Of a stretch of DNA of 64,000 nt, positions 19,198 through 38,061 are shown piece by piece (positions within the stretch are counted from its first letter, which is position 1; each line of letters starts with the position of its first letter). Location of the stretch: NCBI GenBank assembly GCA_913061095.1, contig CAJXVM010000001.1, positions 124,001 to 188,000 of the forward strand, written 5' to 3'. The position numbers and the translations under genes were made by a program. Source of the DNA: an uncultured Ignavibacteria bacterium (GTDB lineage Bacteria; Bacteroidota; Ignavibacteria; SZUA-365). The notes beneath the pieces are model-generated. The model was given only the letters and a program-made list of their open reading frames with translations. It did not search any database and was not told where the DNA came from.

Positions 19198-20232
19198 TTA
19201 CACGGACAGGTATGCACGAATGTTCCTGAGCAGATCCTGCATGTCATCGGGCAGTTCGGAGCTGAAGCGCACCTTCTCGCCGGTTGCGGGATGGATAAAT
19301 CCCAGTGTCCGCGCATGCAGTGCCTGCCGGGGCATCGCCGCCAGCATTTCATTGATAAAGGCTTTGTAGCGTCCGGTCACATTCCCGTAGTGGATGCGTC
19401 TTCCGCCGTAGGTAGGATCCCCGAAAAGCGGGTGTCGTATCGAAGTTAGGTGGACACGAATCTGATGGGTGCGTCCCGTCTGCAGCTGCAATCGCAGAAG
19501 CGAAAAATACGTCAGATCCTCAAGCACCTCATAGTGCGTGACGGCGTGCTTTCCGCCTTCCACCACCGCCATTTTCTTTCTGTCGCTCGGGTGTCGCGCC
19601 AGTGGCGCCTCCACTGTTCCCTGCGACTGCTTCATGCTGCCCCAGACGATGGCCTGATATTCCCGCTCAATGCTGTGGTCGGCGAACTGTCGGGCGATGA
19701 GCTGATGGGCGCGGTCGTTCTTCGCAACCGCCAGCAGGCCCGACGTGTCTTTGTCGAGCCGGTGCAGGATACCGGGACGTTCCTCACCGCGCTTGCTCGA
19801 CAGCTGTTCAGTGTGATACAGAAGGGCGTTGACAAGTGTACCGGTGTAGTTTCCATACGCGGGATGCGTCACCATACCCGCCGGTTTGTTGACGATGAGG
19901 ATATCATCGTCTTCGTACAGGATGTCCAGTGGAATTTTTTCAGGCCGTACTTCGGGCGGGGGCGGTTTCGGCACCGTACACACGACGGTATCGCCTGGAA
20001 GCACAAGGCGACCGGCTTTTTCAACAACGCGTCCATTGACGGTCACGCCTCCCGCTTCGATCAGCGATTTTACTTTTGTCCGTGAAGCGTTTTCGACACT
20101 GCGGGTAATGAACTGGTCGAGCCGGACGCGTCGCGCATTCGGCGCCGAACGCAGTTCGTAGACGGTGACTTCCGGACTGTCCTCCTCCTGCTCGAGTTCA
20201 TCTGAATCCGGAGGCGTGGTATCATCAGTCAT
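19198..20232 (-). CDS. rluD: 23S rRNA pseudouridine synthase, RluD family
   Basis: 344 residues from the ATG at 20232, which overlaps the lspA stop by 8 bases. Acidic N-terminal extension, S4 RNA-binding domain (about residues 30-90, VRLDQFITRSV ... GGVTVNGR), then the RluA/RluD catalytic domain with the signature HRLDKDTSGLL containing the catalytic Asp, and the RTHQIRVH motif. Isomerises uridines in large-subunit rRNA (RluD targets helix 69). Last gene of a long minus-strand operon beginning at yggS. RluC or RluA-type specificity is the alternative; the lspA-rluD pairing is common and supports RluD. Confidence 0.92.
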   Translation of the reverse strand: MTDDTTPPDSDELEQEEDSPEVTVYELRSAPNARRVRLDQFITRSVENASRTKVKSLIEAGGVTVNGRVVEKAGRLVLPGDTVVCTVPKPPPPEVRPEKIPLDILYEDDDILIVNKPAGMVTHPAYGNYTGTLVNALLYHTEQLSSKRGEERPGILHRLDKDTSGLLAVAKNDRAHQLIARQFADHSIEREYQAIVWGSMKQSQGTVEAPLARHPSDRKKMAVVEGGKHAVTHYEVLEDLTYFSLLRLQLQTGRTHQIRVHLTSIRHPLFGDPTYGGRRIHYGNVTGRYKAFINEMLAAMPRQALHARTLGFIHPATGEKVRFSSELPDDMQDLLRNIRAYLSV

Positions 20233-20803
20233 GGGATTCCGGGGTATCCGGTTTTTCCGTACTGTCGTCTCCACTCTGGGGAAGACCGACGATGAGCAGG
20301 ACGACAACGCCAACGGACACTGCTGCATCTGCGATATTGAAGATCGGCCAGAACTTGAACGCTCCCCCACCGATCGTCACCGTGAAAAGATCAAGGTCGA
20401 TAAAATCAACGACGTTGCCGTAGAAGATGGGTGCGGTGTCGTAGAACCAGCCGTAGAATGTGCGATCGATGAGATTGCCGACTGCGCCGGCGAGAATGAG
20501 CGCGAGTGCGACGCGCAGCCAGGGATTGCCGTTGCGATGGCGCCACAGGTAGAAGACAATTCCGATCGATGCGATGAAGGCGACGATGACGAGCAGCAGC
20601 TTGCCACCGATATCCAGCCCGAACGCCATGTTTGGATTCTCGATATAGGTGATCTTCAGCCAGTCGCCCAGAACGGATATCGATTCCCCGTAGTCCATTC
20701 CCTCGATGGAGATACCGATCGCCGGAAGGGACAATCCTTTCACGATAAGCTTGGTCACCTGATCCGCGATCAGGATTCCGAGCGTCAGAAACAGAATGCG
20801 CAT
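20225..20803 (-). CDS. lspA: lipoprotein signal peptidase
   Basis: 192 residues. Inner-membrane aspartyl protease (SPase II) that cleaves prolipoproteins. Four hydrophobic segments are visible, with the conserved elements ADQVTKLIV near the N terminus, NPNMAFG, and the two catalytic aspartates in GNLIDR and FNIADAAV. A short acidic cytoplasmic tail follows the last membrane segment. Its start is 28 bases after the DksA-like gene and its stop overlaps rluD. The window contains at least one clear lipoprotein substrate (34009). Confidence 0.95.
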   Translation of the reverse strand: MRILFLTLGILIADQVTKLIVKGLSLPAIGISIEGMDYGESISVLGDWLKITYIENPNMAFGLDIGGKLLLVIVAFIASIGIVFYLWRHRNGNPWLRVALALILAGAVGNLIDRTFYGWFYDTAPIFYGNVVDFIDLDLFTVTIGGGAFKFWPIFNIADAAVSVGVVVLLIVGLPQSGDDSTEKPDTPESHD

Positions 20804-20830
20804 GTGTCTCGTGCCGTCTCCCGTTCTCTG

Positions 20831-21994
20831 CTAGCGAACCTTTGTTTCCTGTTTACAGCTGACGCACATACGTGCGTGCGGCACGGCTTCGAGACGCCCT
20901 TTCTCGATCAGGTTTCCGCAGACGATGCAGATGCCATAATTCCCGCTCTTGATGCGCTGCAGCGCGTCCGTAAGATGCGAGATGAACTTTCGCTCGCGCG
21001 CCGCGAAGAGATACGCTTTTTCGCGCTCCATCGCATCCGTGCCCTGGTCGGCCATATGCAGCGAATAGGTTGAGTCGTCGGTGAACTCGCCCGTTGAGTT
21101 GTCGTTGAGGCGTTCCTCGATGCTCATCAGCTCTTCGTTGGCATCGTGGATTTTCTGCAGGATGATTTCCTTGAAATAGTCGAGGTCGCCGACGGAATAA
21201 CTTACCGATTCACGAGGCAGAGCCGGCGCTGCAGCCTCGCTCTTCTTCCGCATCAGGTTCCCCTGTTTGCCCTGGAATTTAGGGACGGGCACGGGGGCCT
21301 TTTTACTGCGGCGCGTGTACTTGCGCTTGGGCCTGCTTTCTGCAGCGGCAGTCTCGGCTGCTTCCTTCTCGGCTGATGTTTTCGGCAGCGGTGTCGCGGC
21401 AGTCGGCTTTTTGGAAGTACGTGACGTTGCTTTCGACGCACGCTTCCGGGCCGTCGCCTTTTTCGCAGCAGTTTTTTTCACCGACGCTTTCTTTGTCGTC
21501 TTTTTCGCCGCAGTCTTTTTTGCTGCAGATGTTTTCGCAGAAGTCTTCTTCACGGCGGTTTTCTTCGCTGACTTCTTCGCTGCCGATTTCTTCGTCGCCG
21601 TCGATTTCTTTGCAGCGGTCTTCTTCGCCGCCGTCGACTTCTTCGCGGCAGTCTTCTTCGTGGCCGTCGACTTCTTCGCGGCGGTCTTCTTCGTGGCCGT
21701 CGACTTCTTCGCGGCAGTCTTCTTCGTCGCCTTCTTTGCCGTCGCCTTCTTCGCAGTGGACTTCTTCACCGCTGATTTCTTTGCAGCCGACTTTGCTGAG
21801 GCTGTTTTCTTTGCGGTTGACTTGCGGGTGGCAGTTTTATTCGCGCCGGATTTGCCCGCTGTCGACTTGCGCGCGGAAGTACTCTTCTTCTTGGACGCAG
21901 CTGTTTTCTTCACAGTGGATTTTTTCTTTGCTGTAGAGGACGTGGCCTTTCCGGCCTCCTCATCTTTCTTTTTTTTCGATGTTTTCGCTGCCAT
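20831..21994 (-). CDS. DksA/TraR-type zinc-finger protein with long histone H1-like Lys/Ala tail
   Basis: 387 residues from the ATG at 21994 (GGAG upstream). Residues ~1-205 are almost only Lys, Ala, Ser and Thr in AAKKS/TKKTA repeats like eukaryotic H1 tails or chlamydial/Bordetella H1-like proteins. Residues ~205-265 are a basic Pro-rich linker. The C-terminal ~120 residues carry a coiled-coil hairpin and a C4 zinc finger (CIVCGNLIEKG ... CVSCK) of the DksA/TraR family, which acts at the RNA polymerase secondary channel. I infer a protein that can bind nucleic acid through the tail and polymerase through the DksA part. At the DNA level the tail contains near-identical 33-bp tandem units. 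Sits between ileS and lspA in one operon. Confidence 0.85.
   Translation of the reverse strand: MAAKTSKKKKDEEAGKATSSTAKKKSTVKKTAASKKKSTSARKSTAGKSGANKTATRKSTAKKTASAKSAAKKSAVKKSTAKKATAKKATKKTAAKKSTATKKTAAKKSTATKKTAAKKSTAAKKTAAKKSTATKKSAAKKSAKKTAVKKTSAKTSAAKKTAAKKTTKKASVKKTAAKKATARKRASKATSRTSKKPTAATPLPKTSAEKEAAETAAAESRPKRKYTRRSKKAPVPVPKFQGKQGNLMRKKSEAAAPALPRESVSYSVGDLDYFKEIILQKIHDANEELMSIEERLNDNSTGEFTDDSTYSLHMADQGTDAMEREKAYLFAARERKFISHLTDALQRIKSGNYGICIVCGNLIEKGRLEAVPHARMCVSCKQETKVR
21600..21731 (-). repeat. four tandem 33-bp units in the H1-like tail
   Basis: Four consecutive 33-base units (starting near 21600, 21633, 21666 and 21699) each encode the same 11-residue Lys/Ala/Thr pattern with few base differences. 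The near-identity at third positions points to recent slippage or duplication, so copy number probably varies between strains. Confidence 0.8.
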
Positions 21995-22038
21995 GATGCG
22001 TTCTCCAGTGAAATGGCAAAATATACGGAGCGGCACTC

Positions 22039-25000
22039 TCACTCATCAAGTGCGCTCAAGATGCTGACGCTGCATGTGAGATCGTTGACGCTGAGGTCGG
22101 TACCCTCTTCGAGTGCTTCCTGCGCCAGGACGATATTCTTTGCCAGCGTTTCAGCGCAAATATACGATTCCCGTCGATCAATTGCCTGCTTCAGGCGCTC
22201 TTCTTCAGTGAATATCGTAATCTGAATCCGGTCGGTGACCTCGAAATCCGCATCCTTGCGCATTCCCTGAATCCTGCTGATGAATTCACGGGCGATACCC
22301 TCATCGATCAGTTCCTCAGTCAGTGATGTGTCAAGTGCGACAACGACATCGTCATCCGACCCGATCGTCCATCCTTCAATATCCTCGTGCCTGATTTCAA
22401 TATCCTCGAGTCCGAGTGTGACCTGCTCCCCGTCGATATCGAGTTCGAGCTGTCCCGCGCGTTCAACGTTGTTGATCTCGTCGGCGGTGAGTTGACTGAC
22501 ACGCGCCGCGATGGGCTTGACGAGCTTTCCGTACTTTGGTCCGATCGACTTGAAATTCGGTTTCGCACTCTTGCGCAGCAAATCTGAATCACCCGGGATG
22601 AACTCGATTTCGTGAATGTTTGTCTCTTCGAGTATGACATCACGCATTGCGCGGATGTTCGCGGCGACCGCATCATCACCCGTCGCGATGAGGATGCGTG
22701 CCAGAGGCTGGCGAGTCTTGAGGCGTGTCTGCTCGCGGAGGCCGCGTGTGAGATACACTACGCGCTGCGCGTCATGCATTTTGCGCATGAGAGCATCATC
22801 GATGTGCCCGGGTTCGGGAAGAAGCGCGAGATGCACGGATTCACTGATCGCAGGATCCTCCAATGACGCCGTCAGACGGCGGTAGAGATTCTCGGCCATG
22901 AACGGAGCGATCGGTGACATCAGCTGAGCGATGACCACCAGACAGCGATGCAGCGTCTGGAAGGCCGCGAGCTTGTCATGCGACATTTCTCCCTTCCAGA
23001 AGCGGCGCCTGTTGCGCCGAACATACCAGTTCGACAGCTGGTCGATGGTGAACTCCGAAATCGCGCGTGCAGCCGGCGTCACGTCGTAGCGGTCCATGCT
23101 CCCGCGCACGTCACGGATGAGCGCGTTGAGCTCGGTGAGAATCCACTGATCGATCTCAGGGCGCTTTTCAATCGGCACCTCATCCTCGTTCGCGGTGAAG
23201 CCGTCGATTTCCGCATAGAGCACGAAGAACTGATACGTGTTGATCAGCGCACGGAAGAAATTCTTCTGCACACCTTCAATGTCCTTTTCATTGAACATGG
23301 TCTGCCGCCAGGGCGGACTGTTGACCGTCAGATACCAGCGTGTCGCGTCCGCGCCGTATTCCTCGAGCACGTAAAACGGGTCGACGACGTTGCCGCGGGA
23401 CTTCGACATCTTCTGTCCCTTCTTATCGAGCACCAGTTCGTTGACAATGAGATTTTTATACGCGGGTTTGTCGAACAGTGCAGCTGCGATGGCGTGCAAT
23501 GTGTAAAACCACCCGCGCGTCTGGTCGATGCCCTCGCAGATGAAGTCCGCAGGGAAACTGGATTCGAACAGTTCCCTGTTCTCGAACGGATAGTGATACT
23601 GAGCGAATGGCATCGCACCGGAATCGAACCATACGTCGATGAGCTCCGGCGTGCGCCGGTAGATCTTTCCATCCCGCTCAAAGAGAATATCGTCGACCCA
23701 CGGCTTGTGAAGGTCGATGTCGTCGCGCGTCGGTGAAACCCGTTCGCCGTCAACGATACGGAAGCCTTCGAGCAGATCATCGACGGAGCCGACGAATATC
23801 ATGTCCGATCCGTCTTCCGCCACCCAGATGGGCAGCGGTGTCCCCCAGTAGCGATCGCGCGAGAGCGACCAGTCCTTGTTGTCTTCGAGCCAGTTGCCGA
23901 AGCGGCCGGTGCCGACTTCCGGCGGATACCAGTCGATCTCCCGGTTCAGTTCAATCATGCGCTCGGCGTAGTCCGTCGTGCGAATGTACCAGCTGTCGCG
24001 GGCATAGTAGATCAGTGGATTGTCACAGCGCCAGCAGTGAGGATAACTGTGCAGGTAATCCTTGTTCGCGCTGTATATCTGGCCGTTCTGCTTCAGCAGA
24101 CGAATGATATCGGGATCGACGCCTTCCTCCCTGTGGGTGGCAAACTGAATCGTTTTCACCAAACGCCCCTTGAAGTCACTGATCTCGTCGGTAAACCGTC
24201 CGCTTGTCGTGACGGGAAGAATGAACGGCAGATCATACTTCTTCATCATTTCGTAGTCATCCACGCCGAACGCGGGGGCGATATGCACGATGCCGGAGCC
24301 ATCCTCTGTTGTCACGAAATCGCCCGCGATGAGGTAGAATCCCTTTTCCTCCACGGGCACGTAATCGAACAGGCGCTCGTATTCCATGCCGAGCAGCTGT
24401 TCGCCACGCATCTCCTCGAGAATTTCGTACTCCTCGCTGATCACCGACAGCCGTTCCTTCGCGAGGTAGAGAACCCCGTGCTCTTCAGACCGAATCTTTA
24501 CGTATTCGACGTCAGGATTGACCGCGAGCGCCACGTTGGAAATCAGTGTCCACGGCGTCGTCGTCCACACGAGGATATGCGCGTCTTCGTTCCTGCAGCG
24601 AAATTTCACGTAGACGTTCATGTCCTGCACGTCCTCGTATCCGAGCGCGAGCTCATGCGACGAGAGCGGCGTCTCACAGTGCGGACACTGCGGCACGATT
24701 TTGAATCCCTTGTAAATCAGTCCCTTCTCGTGGAAACGCTTCAGCGCCCACCACACCGACTCGATGTAATCATTCGTGCATGTGATGTAGGCATCTTCAA
24801 GGTTGATCCAGTATCCCATGCGCTCTGTCAGCTTCTGCCAGCCCTCGGGATACTCGATGTGATGATAGACGAACTCCTTGGCTTTCGTATTGAACTTCGC
24901 GACGCCGAATTTCTCAATGTCGGATTTCTGCTCGAATTTGAGTTCACGCTCCAGCGCGACCTCGATGGGAAGACCATGTGTATCCCACCCGGCCTTGCGC

Positions 25001-25245
25001 TGCACCCGGTATCCGGTCACCGTCTTGTAGCGGCAGATCATGTCCTTGAGCGCCCGCGAAACCACGTGATGAATGCCTGGCCGTCCGTTCACCGACGGCG
25101 GTCCTTCGTAGAACGTATACTGGGGCGCATCCGCGCGCTCATCGATGCTTTTCTGGAAAATGCCGCGCTCCTCCCAGAAGGCGAGGATTTCCTTTTCGAG
25201 GTCAGAATAGCGGAAGCGTTCGGGAAAGGGTTCGAAGGTGGCCAT
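22039..25245 (-). CDS. ileS: isoleucyl-tRNA synthetase, IleRS2 type with GxHH signature
   Basis: 1068 residues. Class I synthetase charging tRNA-Ile. The length, the N-terminal start MATFEPFPERF and the absence of a C-terminal zinc-finger motif indicate the eukaryote-like IleRS2 type. The first signature is GIHH at residues 57-60 instead of HxGH, that is, the first and third residues are swapped. The second signature KMSKS is normal at residues 612-616. An editing (CP1) domain lies between, and the anticodon-binding region follows. IleRS2 enzymes are naturally tolerant of mupirocin. The gene overlaps none of its neighbours and lies between DUF2905 and the DksA-like gene in a housekeeping operon, so it is probably the sole ileS, though a second copy elsewhere cannot be excluded. 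Confidence 0.96.
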   Translation of the reverse strand: MATFEPFPERFRYSDLEKEILAFWEERGIFQKSIDERADAPQYTFYEGPPSVNGRPGIHHVVSRALKDMICRYKTVTGYRVQRKAGWDTHGLPIEVALERELKFEQKSDIEKFGVAKFNTKAKEFVYHHIEYPEGWQKLTERMGYWINLEDAYITCTNDYIESVWWALKRFHEKGLIYKGFKIVPQCPHCETPLSSHELALGYEDVQDMNVYVKFRCRNEDAHILVWTTTPWTLISNVALAVNPDVEYVKIRSEEHGVLYLAKERLSVISEEYEILEEMRGEQLLGMEYERLFDYVPVEEKGFYLIAGDFVTTEDGSGIVHIAPAFGVDDYEMMKKYDLPFILPVTTSGRFTDEISDFKGRLVKTIQFATHREEGVDPDIIRLLKQNGQIYSANKDYLHSYPHCWRCDNPLIYYARDSWYIRTTDYAERMIELNREIDWYPPEVGTGRFGNWLEDNKDWSLSRDRYWGTPLPIWVAEDGSDMIFVGSVDDLLEGFRIVDGERVSPTRDDIDLHKPWVDDILFERDGKIYRRTPELIDVWFDSGAMPFAQYHYPFENRELFESSFPADFICEGIDQTRGWFYTLHAIAAALFDKPAYKNLIVNELVLDKKGQKMSKSRGNVVDPFYVLEEYGADATRWYLTVNSPPWRQTMFNEKDIEGVQKNFFRALINTYQFFVLYAEIDGFTANEDEVPIEKRPEIDQWILTELNALIRDVRGSMDRYDVTPAARAISEFTIDQLSNWYVRRNRRRFWKGEMSHDKLAAFQTLHRCLVVIAQLMSPIAPFMAENLYRRLTASLEDPAISESVHLALLPEPGHIDDALMRKMHDAQRVVYLTRGLREQTRLKTRQPLARILIATGDDAVAANIRAMRDVILEETNIHEIEFIPGDSDLLRKSAKPNFKSIGPKYGKLVKPIAARVSQLTADEINNVERAGQLELDIDGEQVTLGLEDIEIRHEDIEGWTIGSDDDVVVALDTSLTEELIDEGIAREFISRIQGMRKDADFEVTDRIQITIFTEEERLKQAIDRRESYICAETLAKNIVLAQEALEEGTDLSVNDLTCSVSILSALDE

Positions 25246-25256
25246 GACGGTGCTGA

Positions 25257-25490
25257 TTACTTCTGTGAATGTCGTTGAATAAAATACGCGATCAGCGTAA
25301 GGACCGCGCTGAGAATGATGCTTGTCGTAAACGGCAGGTACAGTGACACGCCGGGGAGGTCGACTTCAACATCGCCGGGCAGCGCCCCGACAAGCGGAAT
25401 GGTCGGGAGATATACCATCGCGAGCACGACAGCGAGCACCAGAATGAAAAGAATGACGACCAGACGGAGAAATGCGAGCTGCTCTTCCAT
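25257..25490 (-). CDS. DUF2905-like small membrane protein
   Basis: 77 residues with two hydrophobic segments (about 8-30 and 52-70). Between them is LPGDVEVDLPGVSLYLPFTTSIILS, which fits the DUF2905 pattern of a GD-containing loop followed by a PxTTSI-type second membrane segment. The family has no established function; it is often found near recombination or tRNA genes. It starts 8 bases after punA and ends 11 bases before ileS, so it is part of the operon. Confidence 0.75.
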   Translation of the reverse strand: MEEQLAFLRLVVILFILVLAVVLAMVYLPTIPLVGALPGDVEVDLPGVSLYLPFTTSIILSAVLTLIAYFIQRHSQK

Positions 25491-25498
25491 TGTTGCGT

Positions 25499-26326
25499 CT
25501 ACGCCCGCAGGCGCGCGATCACTCCTTTCATCAGTGCACGAAGCTTCGGCTCGGTTTCATTCGCCGTTTTGATGATGGTCGGAACATCCACCGCTTCGAG
25601 CGCATCGGGAAAGCACTCGTCGGTAATGATGGAAAACGCGAGCACGTTCATTCCCATGTGTACCGCGACGATGTTCTCGGGCACAGTAGACATCCCCACG
25701 GCATCGGCACCGATGCCGCGCAGAAAACGGTACTCGGCACGCGTCTCCAGGTTCGGCCCGGCAACGGCGACAAACACGCCTTTGCGAAGAGGGATCTTCT
25801 CCGCGAGGGCAACATCTTCCGCGATGGAGATGTAGGCTTCGCTGTAAGCTTCACTCATGTCGGGAAAGCGGGGACCGAGCGACTCGTCGTTCGGTCCGAT
25901 AAGGGGATTATCGCCAATGAGATTGATGTGGTCCCATATGACCATGATATCACCCCGCCGGAAAACGGGGTTCATCCCTCCCGCGGCGTTTGAAATAAGC
26001 AGATCACGCACTCCCAGCTCGTGCATCACACGCACCGGGAATGTCACCTGCTTGAGCGTGTATCCTTCATAATAGTGGAAACGGCCCTGCATCGCGACGA
26101 CCGGCTTCCCGGCGAGAGTGCCGAATATCAGTTTGCCATGATGCGACTCCACCGTGGAGATCGGGAAATGCGGAATGTCAGCGTAATCGATCACGATTTC
26201 GGTGTCGATTTCCTCAACGAGACCGCCGAGGCCGGTTCCGAGGATGATCCCGACGCGCGGAGTCACCGCCGTTTTCATTCGAATGTAAGACACCGCCTCG
26301 TCAATGGCGGCGCGGAGATCAGTCAT
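25499..26326 (-). CDS. punA: purine-nucleoside phosphorylase (PNP, trimeric PunA type)
   Basis: 275 residues from the ATG at 26326, which overlaps the end of the divIVA-like gene by 8 bases; the long open frame upstream is out of register with homology. Motifs of the trimeric PNP/MTAP family: GIILGTGLGGL (phosphate loop), MQGRFHYYEGY, SNAAGGMN, and TRAEYRFLRGIGADAVGMSTVPE. Phosphorolysis of inosine and guanosine to free base and ribose-1-phosphate in purine salvage. Length is typical. Confidence 0.95.
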   Translation of the reverse strand: MTDLRAAIDEAVSYIRMKTAVTPRVGIILGTGLGGLVEEIDTEIVIDYADIPHFPISTVESHHGKLIFGTLAGKPVVAMQGRFHYYEGYTLKQVTFPVRVMHELGVRDLLISNAAGGMNPVFRRGDIMVIWDHINLIGDNPLIGPNDESLGPRFPDMSEAYSEAYISIAEDVALAEKIPLRKGVFVAVAGPNLETRAEYRFLRGIGADAVGMSTVPENIVAVHMGMNVLAFSIITDECFPDALEAVDVPTIIKTANETEPKLRALMKGVIARLRA

Positions 26327-26948
26327 TGTCGTTCTCCCGTTCGTCAAGTCGTTCAAGAATCTCATCGACGGTATCGGCGTCCAGCCCCTCGCGCGTGCTG
26401 GTCGCATTCCGGAGCGCCGAGCGCAGAGAGCGATTCTTCGGATGTTTCTCCAGGTCCGAGAGAAAATCCACCTGCGCCCGGAGGATGGATTTGATGCGCG
26501 TGATGAGTGCGAGCTTTTTGGTCTCCAGCAGATCGATCTGCTGCTGCAGGGCATCCATCCGTGCGTTGGCTTTCATCATCTGTCGCTCGGCGCGGCGCTC
26601 GGCATCACGAATAATGACCGCTGCCTCGTTCTTCGCGTTTTCGATGATCGCGGTCCGTTCCTTTTCGACCTTGTACGACATGGCAACGGCGCTCGCCTCT
26701 GCCTGTCCGACCATTTTCTGCGATGCGGCCTTCATTTCGCGCAGCATGGCGCGAACCTTCTGCTCGAGTTGCTGCGACTGCTGAAGCTGCTCCTCGAGAT
26801 GGAGCACATCACCTCGTAATGATGAGTTCTCCTCCGAAAGGGCGATGATATCCTCGGCAAGCAGTCGCAGGTACGAGCGCACTTCCTCCGGACTCAGGCC
26901 CTTCCGGACGGTTTTGAAATTTTTTCCGGCTATCGATTCGACGTTCAC
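26319..26948 (-). CDS. DivIVA-like coiled-coil protein
   Basis: 209 residues if started at the GTG at 26948, chosen because GAGGTG lies 6 bases upstream; a GTG at 26957 is an alternative. The N-terminal ~45 residues (IAGKNFKTVRKGLSPEEVRSYLRLLA) match the DivIVA membrane-binding lipid-interaction domain pattern with F-x(n)-G-Y/L-x-x-x-EV. The remainder is a long heptad coiled coil rich in Glu, Lys, Ala and Gln. DivIVA proteins bind curved membrane and recruit division, polarity or wall-growth factors; such proteins also occur next to yggS in many phyla. Overlaps punA and nearly abuts yggS. Confidence 0.85.
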   Translation of the reverse strand: MNVESIAGKNFKTVRKGLSPEEVRSYLRLLAEDIIALSEENSSLRGDVLHLEEQLQQSQQLEQKVRAMLREMKAASQKMVGQAEASAVAMSYKVEKERTAIIENAKNEAAVIIRDAERRAERQMMKANARMDALQQQIDLLETKKLALITRIKSILRAQVDFLSDLEKHPKNRSLRSALRNATSTREGLDADTVDEILERLDERENDND

Positions 26949-26958
26949 TGTCCGCACC

Positions 26959-27636
<678 letters not shown>

Positions 27637-27788
27637 AAACAGATGAATATATTCCCCAAGGGCATAATATCCAAAGTACAGCGCCGTCCGCGCGTTTGCA
27701 TCGATGGGGGTCGCTTCCATGTGCCGTCTGCAACCCGGCACGCGTGCGCAGTGAGGGGCGGATTTTCGAAAAAAGTGCCTCCTGCGTT

Positions 27789-27819
27789 TTGAAAATGTAT
27801 CTATTTATCCATAGATTCA
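27789..27819 (+). promoter_or_regulatory. candidate promoter of the PfkB kinase gene
   Basis: TTG at 27789-27791, 20-base spacer, TAGATTCA at 27812-27819. Same geometry as the other TTG-N20-TAnnTT boxes; about 85 bases before the ATG at 27904. Confidence 0.35.
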
Positions 27820-27903
27820 TCGTGTCCCGCTCATTTCATACATTGACTCCTGTTCCATCGCAGGACCAGCGGAACAGGACACGACTGCACAGGAGAATAA
27901 GGG

Positions 27904-28869
27904 ATGAATGATTTCAAGGTACCTCCCACGGTTATCTATGATTTGACAACGGTCGGTGACGCCTACGTGGAACTCCGTGCCGAGGACACCACGCTTCCGG
28001 AGGCAAAGGATTTCGAACGCCGCATCGCCGGATCGGCTGCCCTGATCGGCATCTACTACAGCATGCTCGGTGGAAAAGTCAACTGCATCGCATCCGTCGG
28101 TGCTGACGCGCTCGGCACATATGTGCAGAACATCCTGCGTCAGTACAAGGTCAACGCGACATCGATGCAGTTCTCGCGCGATCACCCCACCACCCTGCTG
28201 TTCAGCGCCCGCCAGGGCCGCATCGTCCAGTCCACATTCTACCGTCTGGCGGACTGGCAGCTCCACAATACGAAAGATCATGTAACGCTGGCACAGAGCT
28301 CACACATCGTGCATGGCAGCGGTTTCTGTCTGTGGAAACATCCGGGACGCCACAGTATTTTCGAAATTCTGCGCCTGTCGAAAAAGTACGAGAGCATGAC
28401 GGTGCTTCAGCCGTCCTATGAACCTTCGATCTGGCGGAATCGGAACGACGCGCAGACCACGATTAAAAAGACCCTGCAGTTCGCTGACATCATCACTCCG
28501 ACCATCGATGATGCCGAGCATCTGTTCGGCAAGGCTTCACGCGAGGATCATCTGAAGAATTACCACGAAATGGGTGCGAAAACGGTGATCATGACCATGG
28601 GAAAACAGGGAGCCCTGGTATCCGACGGAAGTAAGGTCGTGCGCGTGCCCGCGGTGGAAATGGAGGTTGTCGATCCCGCCGGCGTGCATGACGCCTGGCA
28701 TGCCGGGTTGTACTACGCCATGAACAACGGGAAGCCGCTCGCGAACGCGACATATTTTGCTAACGCGGTTGCAGCGTACGTGCTCGGACAGCAGGGATCA
28801 CTCGTTCCGCTGCCCGCCCCGGGTGAGATTACGCAATCACTGCTTGACAAAGCATTTGAAGACGTCTGA
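27904..28869 (+). CDS. PfkB/ribokinase family sugar or nucleoside kinase with altered GAGD motif
   Basis: 321 residues; AGGAGAATAAGGG precedes the ATG. Overall PfkB fold: VGDAYVEL strand, GSAALIGIYYSMLG (normally GGxxxNxA), GADALG, then DIITPTIDDAEHLFG and TVIMTMGKQGALV. The C-terminal signature is DPAGVHDAWHAG instead of DTTGAGDAF: the catalytic Asp (D263) is kept but the anion-hole GAG is GVH, with a bulky His at 262. The substrate cannot be named; the family covers fructose, ribose, KDG and adenosine kinases. Single gene, closed by the terminator at 28896. Confidence 0.8.
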   Translation: MNDFKVPPTVIYDLTTVGDAYVELRAEDTTLPEAKDFERRIAGSAALIGIYYSMLGGKVNCIASVGADALGTYVQNILRQYKVNATSMQFSRDHPTTLLFSARQGRIVQSTFYRLADWQLHNTKDHVTLAQSSHIVHGSGFCLWKHPGRHSIFEILRLSKKYESMTVLQPSYEPSIWRNRNDAQTTIKKTLQFADIITPTIDDAEHLFGKASREDHLKNYHEMGAKTVIMTMGKQGALVSDGSKVVRVPAVEMEVVDPAGVHDAWHAGLYYAMNNGKPLANATYFANAVAAYVLGQQGSLVPLPAPGEITQSLLDKAFEDV

Positions 28870-28895
28870 CGTCCGCCGCCCATTGTGAATTCCAC

Positions 28896-28932
28896 AGCGT
28901 CACATCGGATCTGAACCGGTGTGACGCTTTTT
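28896..28932. terminator. rho-independent terminator
   Basis: A 13-bp stem (AGCGTCACATCGG / CCGGTGTGACGCT with one G-U pair), 7-base loop and a T-run, between the kinase gene and the convergent aat. Confidence 0.9.
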
Positions 28933-28960
28933 CATTTGAAACGGGTGAGGAAATTCGGAC

Positions 28961-29539
28961 TCAGGTGAAATCCACCGGAAGCTGCAGGGCATCGTCGAGA
29001 AGGCGAAGGTATTCCAGGCGGGGAACCTCGAATGCACCCAGCCGGCTTAGATGCGGCGTGGTGTACTGCACATCGAGCAGCGGCATGCCGCGTTCGGTCA
29101 TGCGGCGGCAGAGTGCGACCAGTGCGACCTTGGAGGCGTCCCGGATTTCGAAAAACATCGACTCCCCGAAAAATGCACCGGCAATCGAAACACCATACAG
29201 TCCACCTGCGAGTGCGTCATCCTGCCAGGCCTCCACACTGTGTGCGGATCCCCGCTCGTGCAGGAGCAGGTACGACTGGACAATACCTTCGGATATCCAG
29301 GTGTCGTCGCGCGCGGCGCAGCGGCGAATCACCTCCTCGAACACCGTATTGATGCGAATCTCGAAACGTCCCGACCGCACGGTTTTCGCCAGTGAATGCG
29401 AGATATGCAGTTCCGCGGGATTGATAATGGTGCGCGGATCCGGACTGTAAAGCATGATCGAACCGTGTCTTCCCTCCGCCATGGGAAAGATCCCCGACGC
29501 ATACATATTCAGCAGGTCATCTGGTGGGATGACTGTCAT
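28961..29539 (-). CDS. aat: leucyl/phenylalanyl-tRNA-protein transferase
   Basis: 192 residues. N-end-rule enzyme that transfers Leu or Phe from tRNA to proteins with N-terminal Arg or Lys, marking them for ClpS/ClpAP. Shows the GNAT-like family pattern: LLxMYASGIFPM, DPRTIINP, SHSLAKTVRSGRFEIRIN, VEAWQDDALAGGLYGVSIAGAFFGESMF, and LLDVQY. It is shorter than the E. coli enzyme (~234 residues), lacking part of the N-terminal extension, which is common in this phylum. The start overlaps the stop of the recombinase-like gene by one base. Confidence 0.94.
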   Translation of the reverse strand: MTVIPPDDLLNMYASGIFPMAEGRHGSIMLYSPDPRTIINPAELHISHSLAKTVRSGRFEIRINTVFEEVIRRCAARDDTWISEGIVQSYLLLHERGSAHSVEAWQDDALAGGLYGVSIAGAFFGESMFFEIRDASKVALVALCRRMTERGMPLLDVQYTTPHLSRLGAFEVPRLEYLRLLDDALQLPVDFT

Positions 29540-35617: not shown

Positions 35618-36022
35618 ATGATCAAACGGATCGCACACATCGGAATTGCCGTCAGGGAACTTGAAAGCGCGCAGGAGGTCTTTCAGACACTCCTGAACCT
35701 GCGTCCGTCCCACGTGGAGCGCGTCGAAGAGCAGAAAGTCGACGTCAGCAGCTTTCACGTGGATGACACGAATCTTGAACTGACCGCCGGGATTTCCGAA
35801 GAATCCCCCATCAGCAAATTCATCGAGAAGCGCGGAGAAGGCATTCATCACATGGCGTTTGAGGTCGATGATATTCACGCGGAGCTTGCGCGGCTCAAGG
35901 AAGCCGGCGTCCGTCTCATCGACGAAGAGCCACGAATGGGTGCGGATAATTTCCTTGTCGCCTTCATCCACCCGAAATCCGCGGGCGGCGTGCTTGTCGA
36001 ACTCTGTCAGAAAGCCGGCTAA
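35618..36022 (+). CDS. mce: methylmalonyl-CoA epimerase
   Basis: 134 residues from the ATG at 35618. Vicinal-oxygen-chelate (glyoxalase) fold enzyme that interconverts (S)- and (R)-methylmalonyl-CoA. Metal ligands are visible in KRIAHIGIAV (His near residue 7), EGIHHMAFEV (His) and VLVELCQ (Glu), with the family DNFLVAFIHPKSAGG near the end. Implies a propionyl-CoA/succinyl-CoA interconversion using the B12-dependent mutase, which is not in the window. Followed 23 bases later by uvrC, an unrelated partner. Confidence 0.9.
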   Translation: MIKRIAHIGIAVRELESAQEVFQTLLNLRPSHVERVEEQKVDVSSFHVDDTNLELTAGISEESPISKFIEKRGEGIHHMAFEVDDIHAELARLKEAGVRLIDEEPRMGADNFLVAFIHPKSAGGVLVELCQKAG

Positions 36023-36045
36023 GCGAGCCCGGCTCCACAAAGCGG

Positions 36046-38061
36046 ATGACTGAGCCCCCACCAACGAACGAACTGCAGCGGAAGCTGGAAAACCTGCCCC
36101 GCTCCCCCGGCGTGTATCAGTTTCGTGACGCCGAGGGACGCATCATTTACGTCGGCAAGGCCAAAAGCCTGCGAAGCCGCGTCCGCTCGTATTTCCAGGC
36201 CAAAGGCAGTGCGGATCCGAAACGCGACATCCTCGTATCCAGGATCACTGATCTCGAGATTGTGGTCACTGATTCCGAGGTGGAGGCACTGCTCCTCGAG
36301 AACAACCTGATCAAGGAACACGCTCCGCGGTACAACATCCGTCTCAAGGACGACAAGAGTTACCCCTACATCGTCGTCACGAATGAGCCATATCCACGGA
36401 TATTCCCGACGCGACGCATCGTGCGCGACGGTTCACGCTATTACGGGCCTTACACGGACGTCAAGGCCATGCATCTGATGCTGCGGACGATCCGCGGCAT
36501 ATTTCCGATCCGCAGCTGCGACTACAAGCTCGATGCCGATGTGATCGCACGCCGCAAGGTGAAGCTCTGCCTGGATTACCATATCCAGAAATGCGAGGGT
36601 CCGTGTGAGGGGCTCGTTGCGCAGGAAGAATACACGGCGATGATCGCCCAGGTGGAACAGCTGCTCAAGGGCAAGACACGCGGTCTGCAGCGACAGCTGG
36701 AGGAGGAGATGCAGGACTGCGCGGAGAACTTGGAATTCGAGAAGGCCGCCAAACTTCGCAATCGTCTGCAGGCTCTGAAGACCTATCAGGATCGTCAGAA
36801 GGTCGCGGCCGCGGACTTCAAGGATCGGGACATCGTGGCAATCGCGAGGAAGGAATCCGACGCCGTAGGCATCGTGTTTCGTGTCCGGGATGGAAAGATC
36901 GTTGGCAAGCAGCATTTTCCGTTCACCGGTGCGGACATCGAATCCGACGAAGCGATACTCGAGCATCTGATGCACAGGTACTACACCAAGACGATGGATA
37001 TTCCATCCGAGATCGTCATTCCCGAAGCTCCGGAGTCCACCGAAGCACTCGAAGAGTGGCTGAGCGACCGTGCGCAGATGCGCGTCGGCTTCACCGTTCC
37101 CCGTATCGGAGACAAGCTGAAGCTTCTTTCGATGTGCCGCGCGAATGCCGGATACATCCTCGATGACATTCTTCTGCAGAAGATGAAGTCGGAGACGGCC
37201 CTTCCGAAATCCGTGGAGTTTCTGCAGAGAGATCTCCATCTTCCCTCCCCTCCCCGCCGCATCGAGTGTTTTGATATCTCGCATTTCCAGGGCGCGGAAA
37301 CCGTCGCTTCAATGGTATCCTTTCTCGACGGGAAACCGCGAAAAAGTGAATACCGGAAATACGGCATTCGCAGTGTGCACGGCGTCGACGATTTTGCATC
37401 GATGCGCGAAGTCATCGAGCGGCGATACACGCGGGTCCTTGAGGAGGAGCAGCCGCTTCCGGATCTCATCGTCGTTGATGGCGGCAAGGGGCAGCTCTCA
37501 TCCGCCGTGGAGATTCTGAAAGAACTCGGTCTCGACCGGCAGCCGATAATCGGTCTCGCCAAGCGGCTAGAGGAAGTCTTTGTCCCGGGCGAAAGTCTGC
37601 CCATGAATCTTCCCAAGACCTCCCCGGGTCTCAAACTGCTTCAGCGCCTGCGAGACGAGGCACATCGCTTCGCGATCACCTATCATCGCGAACGACGTGA
37701 CAGGGCGACACTTCAGACCGAACTCGAAGAAATCGAGGGCGTCGGTCCCAAGCGCGCGCAGACCCTGCTGACCGCTTTCGGCTCGGTGCGCTCCGTCGCC
37801 CAGGCAAGCACCGAACAGCTGGCGGAACATGTCGGATGGTCGCTCGCGCGCCAGATTTTCGAGTACTTCCAGACTTCTGCCGATTCTCCGTCCATCGAAT
37901 CATCATCGTCTGAACAGGTGACATCGTCCGAAAAGGAATTATCGTCCGACACATCGAGTTCATCCACGAGCACATCCTCGGCATCCGACCAAGCGGCATC
38001 CGCGAATGCGCGGTCCGGCAGCACGCAGGATGACGGGAAGGGAGATACAGTTACAGAATGA
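36046..38061 (+). CDS. uvrC: excinuclease ABC subunit C
   Basis: 671 residues. Nucleotide-excision-repair nuclease making both incisions with UvrAB. In order: GIY-YIG domain (GVYQFRDAEGRIIYVGKAK, residues ~18-40), a Cys-containing segment (KLCLDYHIQKCEGPC), UVR motif for UvrB binding (about 205-240), RNase H-like nuclease domain (RIECFDISHFQG; DLIVVDGGKGQLS), and helix-hairpin-helix repeats (EIEGVGPKRAQTLL). After about residue 605 there is a ~60-residue tail of mostly Ser, Thr, Glu and Asp, not a usual part of UvrC. The stop overlaps the following TPR gene in an ATGA. Confidence 0.97.
   Translation: MTEPPPTNELQRKLENLPRSPGVYQFRDAEGRIIYVGKAKSLRSRVRSYFQAKGSADPKRDILVSRITDLEIVVTDSEVEALLLENNLIKEHAPRYNIRLKDDKSYPYIVVTNEPYPRIFPTRRIVRDGSRYYGPYTDVKAMHLMLRTIRGIFPIRSCDYKLDADVIARRKVKLCLDYHIQKCEGPCEGLVAQEEYTAMIAQVEQLLKGKTRGLQRQLEEEMQDCAENLEFEKAAKLRNRLQALKTYQDRQKVAAADFKDRDIVAIARKESDAVGIVFRVRDGKIVGKQHFPFTGADIESDEAILEHLMHRYYTKTMDIPSEIVIPEAPESTEALEEWLSDRAQMRVGFTVPRIGDKLKLLSMCRANAGYILDDILLQKMKSETALPKSVEFLQRDLHLPSPPRRIECFDISHFQGAETVASMVSFLDGKPRKSEYRKYGIRSVHGVDDFASMREVIERRYTRVLEEEQPLPDLIVVDGGKGQLSSAVEILKELGLDRQPIIGLAKRLEEVFVPGESLPMNLPKTSPGLKLLQRLRDEAHRFAITYHRERRDRATLQTELEEIEGVGPKRAQTLLTAFGSVRSVAQASTEQLAEHVGWSLARQIFEYFQTSADSPSIESSSSEQVTSSEKELSSDTSSSSTSTSSASDQAASANARSGSTQDDGKGDTVTE

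Follow-up and report, generated by a model that had tools for sequence, protein, structure and literature searches.

We found that the ileS gene in the stretch of Ignavibacteria DNA analyzed here (64,000 nucleotides, referred to as the window) encodes a type 2 isoleucyl-tRNA synthetase (IleRS2) in which the near-universal HXGH signature of class I synthetases is replaced by GIHH. We are confident that this is the sole, housekeeping IleRS of the organism and a natural GXHH enzyme, predicted to be active with the third-position histidine (His59) in the catalytic role, to have a high Ki for mupirocin, and to have been inherited vertically in a phylum in which the motif is fixed.

The ileS gene and its signature motif

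The ileS frame is a real gene, since its product scored 933 bits over residues 7-860 against TIGR00392, the isoleucyl-tRNA synthetase profile, for which the cut-off is 621. The Pfam domains recognized in the product were tRNA-synt_1, Anticodon_1 and DUF5915. A preliminary description of this DNA had reported GIHH in place of the class I signature, within positions 25040-25110, together with a normal KMSKS loop. Both were recovered: the translation and the codons read GIHH, the span given encloses the motif, and the loop starts at residue 612 (Table 1). The pattern GPPxxNGxPGxHH had one match in the window and none in 100 shuffled versions. An AlphaFold2 model of the protein, built from a 21-row alignment, had a mean pLDDT of 72.7, with much of the catalytic core (residues 421-473 and 533-620) below 50; it cannot be relied on around the active site, and we drew no structural support from it.

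Table 1. Features of the ileS region, in window coordinates.
Feature	Position	Strand	Basis
ileS, type 2 isoleucyl-tRNA synthetase, 1068 aa	22039..25245	minus	ORF (ATG start); TIGR00392; Pfam domains
GIHH signature, residues 57-60, replacing HXGH	25066..25077	minus	codons GGC ATT CAT CAC
KMSKS loop, residues 612-616, canonical	23398..23412	minus	position derived from the residue numbering
C-terminal DUF5915 domain, residues 869-1062	22060..22641	minus	Pfam
TraR/DksA zinc-finger protein, downstream of ileS	20831..22042	minus	ileS-dksA-lspA order elsewhere
lspA-like lipoprotein signal peptidase, downstream of ileS	20225..20803	minus	sequence and position
Purine nucleoside phosphorylase, upstream of ileS	25499..26554	minus	PF01048
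DivIVA-domain protein, upstream of ileS	26319..27017	minus	PF05103

A single ileS in a housekeeping neighborhood

A profile search of the organism's own genome (4.6 Mb, completeness 100) found one locus above the ileS cut-off. The partial matches that we read were the valyl- (ValRS), leucyl- (LeuRS) and arginyl-tRNA synthetases (ArgRS), as named from their sequences, and one further partial match is probably the methionyl enzyme (MetRS). The view that this is the only ileS, lying in a housekeeping gene context, thus held on both counts: no second ileS was found in the complete genome, and the gene order ileS-dksA-lspA is common to Bacteroides, Parabacteroides and Riemerella. Upstream of ileS are genes for the purine nucleoside phosphorylase, the DivIVA-domain protein and a YggS-like protein; downstream are the TraR/DksA gene and lspA. 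Neither a T-box nor any other leader was recognized in an Rfam scan of positions 20000-29000, and a tRNA search found none in the window.

At the N terminus of the TraR/DksA protein, some 200 residues rich in Lys and Ala form a tail that resembles the histone H1-like protein HC2. In a distant member of the phylum (genome G119), the gene adjoining ileS likewise starts with a Lys/Ala/Pro-rich tail.

Assignment to type IleRS2

The nearest solved structures by sequence were four entries of Priestia megaterium IleRS2, the best being 8c8w, a GVHH mutant. Scores were about 906-917 bits against the P. megaterium IleRS2 structures and about 353-365 bits against those of IleRS1, placing the enzyme closer to IleRS2. 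GIHH aligned without gaps onto GVHH of 8c8w and onto HVGH of 8c8u, 8c8v and Thermus thermophilus 1ile. Eukaryote-like IleRS enzymes are marked by the presence of HYPFE and the absence of NKIL, Tyr59 and a C-terminal zinc cluster (PMC4861432). Here HYPFE is found at residue 551, NKIL is missing, and Ser51 (in GPPS) stands where Tyr59 would be expected. The C terminus lacks the Cys4 zinc cluster of IleRS1, the only cysteines after residue 768 being Cys1030 and Cys1058. Two contacts with mupirocin, Asn70 and Phe586 of P. megaterium IleRS1, are confined to IleRS1 (PMC10485003); from the motif register and the structure alignment, their equivalents here are Ser63 and Leu604. The alignment with both types, along with the structure matches, DUF5915, HYPFE and the lack of NKIL, agrees with the earlier assignment to IleRS2. 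With Gly first and His third in the motif, the enzyme belongs to the GXHH class of IleRS2, which is defined by Gly or Ala at the first position and His at the third. It falls outside MupA/MupB, with scores of 848 bits against NF000257 and 819 bits against NF000258, for which the cut-offs are 1900.

The closest parallel is with the natural G/AXHH enzymes of Deinococcus radiodurans (ALHH) and Streptomyces griseus (PMC10485003), which are also housekeeping enzymes of type 2 with His at the third position and Gly or Ala at the first. The enzyme described here differs from that of D. radiodurans in reading GIHH and in belonging to another phylum. Its motif matches that of 8c8w position by position, but the swap is natural here and laboratory-made in 8c8w, and the remaining sequence is clearly divergent. 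Staphylococcal MupA is likewise a member of the IleRS2 family; it has the canonical HTGH, however, is plasmid-borne and acquired, and is about 40% identical to the IleRS here. IleRS1 (Escherichia coli; Staphylococcus aureus 1ffy) catalyzes the same reaction with the same overall class I fold, but carries HXGH, NKIL and Tyr59, binds zinc at its C terminus, and can neither tolerate nor use GXHH (PMC10485003, PMC4861432).

Distribution of the GXHH motif

We compared 60 relatives from the Ignavibacteria, the Chlorobiaceae and unplaced Bacteroidetes, and wherever the signature was readable it was GIHH, GVHH or GLHH. With further loci added, GXHH was present in 95 of 95 phylum IleRS loci with a readable signature, a few of which are the same gene twice. 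In an even sample of 296 phylum genomes, 295 matched a pattern admitting both forms, and the ileS-like sequences among the matches listed were all GXHH. An HXGH pattern matched none of the 296 genomes; this pattern requires GPPxxNG without mismatch and V, I, L, M or F as the second motif residue, which makes it blind to HAGH and HTGH, and as a control it does recover the IleRS2 of Paenibacillus. Within the sample, GXHH is fixed throughout the phylum and represents its normal condition, rather than a peculiarity of this organism.

GXHH was also found in one Clostridia and one actinomycete IleRS2. HXGH was kept by two Bacilli IleRS2 enzymes (HIGH and HAGH) and by staphylococcal MupA. In a tree of 21 sequences, for which the root was assumed and in which Nonomuraea lies on a long branch, the GXHH enzymes, including those of Acetoanaerobium and Nonomuraea, were separated from the HXGH enzymes of Bacilli and mupA with full support and a single change of state. 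These patterns are consistent with a motif that would have been inherited vertically and become fixed in the phylum.

Three circular-plasmid records (47-105 kb), from Bacteroides, Parabacteroides and Riemerella, carry an ileS with GIHH in the usual ileS-dksA-lspA neighborhood. The records are classed as non-mobilizable and are possibly mislabelled pieces of chromosome or chromids. For these reasons, and because the neighborhood is the normal one, we do not regard these genes as mobile resistance determinants. A candidate second ileS in genome G119 (contig C10, 5580 bases) was rejected, as it is a 205-aa GXHH fragment that is probably contamination or an assembly leftover. On the Sutcliffiella horikoshii plasmid pBH-BAT-167 (168 kb), a gene for an IleRS2 that reads HAGH adjoins one for a CBASS phospholipase.

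ValRS signature in the same genome

The ValRS of the same genome (contig C32, positions 35646-38042, minus strand) has the sequence PPPNITGMLTMGH, in which Thr takes the place of the first His in the class I motif (TMGH). In a ValRS pattern search of the 296 phylum genomes, TMGH was frequent in the class to which the window belongs and in two further families, and HMGH was found elsewhere. Among the matches listed, TMGH was counted by hand in at least 36, mostly from that class, and HMGH was kept by at least seven members of the class, in one case within a single family. In the set of papers searched, no match was found for the TMGH motif together with valyl-tRNA synthetase.

Expected catalysis and mupirocin binding

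In IleRS2 the third-position His has been reported to take over catalysis and to exclude mupirocin sterically, with Ki values in the millimolar range (PMC10485003, published in 2023). The tip of the helix that bears the motif is displaced in IleRS2, and a His at the third position can replace the first without pushing the adenine (PMC10485003). Reversion of the D. radiodurans enzyme lowered the Ki for mupirocin 823-fold, from 6.6 mM to 8.1 μM (PMC10485003), and the link between GXHH and extreme resistance given in the preliminary description is sound. The added claim that activity is not lost applies to the naturally swapped enzymes, D. radiodurans IleRS2 among them, which pay no catalytic cost, but not to swaps engineered into HXGH enzymes, in which Ki rose approximately 200- to 430-fold and kcat or KM suffered by up to 10-fold (PMC10485003).

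By analogy with these enzymes, His59 would stabilize the transition state of isoleucine activation in place of the missing first His. Its bulk, at a position where class I enzymes have Gly, would clash with mupirocin; ATP would be spared, since in IleRS2 the tip of the helix lies in a shifted position. We expect an active enzyme, to which its standing as the only ileS product of a complete genome points indirectly, with a mupirocin Ki in the high micromolar to millimolar range, and hyper-resistance at the level of the enzyme is very likely, judging from its published relatives. Because the swapped GVHH enzyme of T. thermophilus has a Ki of only 35 μM (PMC10485003), the value varies with the enzyme context and could here lie well away from the millimolar range.

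Origin of the motif and resistance of cells

An explanation to which we give an even chance, and which is compatible with a housekeeping natural GXHH enzyme, is that GXHH is ancestral in this IleRS2 subclade, either neutral or driven by structure, and became fixed for causes other than mupirocin, resistance being a by-product. Fixation in the phylum sample is complete, one change of motif suffices on the small tree, and much of the phylum has no known contact with mupirocin producers. The phylum-wide motif may be a historical feature that carries resistance with it. The freedom of natural GXHH enzymes from catalytic cost points the same way (PMC10485003). Against it, no fewer than four nucleotides must change for the swap, for which two or more independent origins have been reported (PMC10485003); this suggests a degree of selection.

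That whole cells are hyper-resistant through this IleRS, under selection by mupirocin-like antibiotics, is possible but doubtful. The published Ki values (PMC10485003) and the presence of GXHH in the sole ileS argue for it, and in an infant-gut culture study mupirocin medium was predicted to raise the diversity of Bacteroidaceae. However, Enterobacteriaceae, which are Gram-negative and have IleRS1, rose as well, so this phenotype is not diagnostic; a paper on Porphyromonas gingivalis and mupirocin, in which the control was Enterococcus faecalis, does not decide it. Nothing indicates selection by mupirocin in this lineage, and whole-cell hyper-resistance cannot be concluded because Gram-negative permeability and efflux also set the MIC. 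The earlier statement that this organism is intrinsically hyper-resistant was correct as to the IleRS2 type, the swapped motif and the sole ileS, but was overstated, as GXHH is phylum-wide and the extension to whole cells was an inference.

A wider reading, which we consider improbable, is that the whole phylum is intrinsically hyper-resistant to mupirocin-like inhibitors at their target because GXHH is fixed there, and that loss of the first His, which in the class of this organism extends to ValRS (TMGH), is a broader adaptation of class I active sites in the group. We give almost no weight to a sequencing, assembly or frameshift artefact, or to a pseudogene with a functional ileS elsewhere, since the 1068-aa frame is intact, the complete genome has no second ileS, and the motif recurs in close relatives (75-84% identity) and in every phylum member whose signature was read, a conservation that refutes this explanation.

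Meaning for the phylum

The GIHH motif is real, but it is the norm in its phylum, belongs to a broadly distributed type and has been accounted for by published work, and by itself it opens no new question. In a little-studied lineage it confirms a striking departure from the class I signature that had been described before. Fixation of GXHH bears on predictions of the spectrum of mupirocin, and in resistome annotation a housekeeping GXHH ileS can be miscalled as acquired mupirocin resistance. The lack of any HXGH match in the 296 genomes shows that an essential enzyme can have the altered motif as its usual form, so that the motif does not have to mark a rare mutation to resistance.
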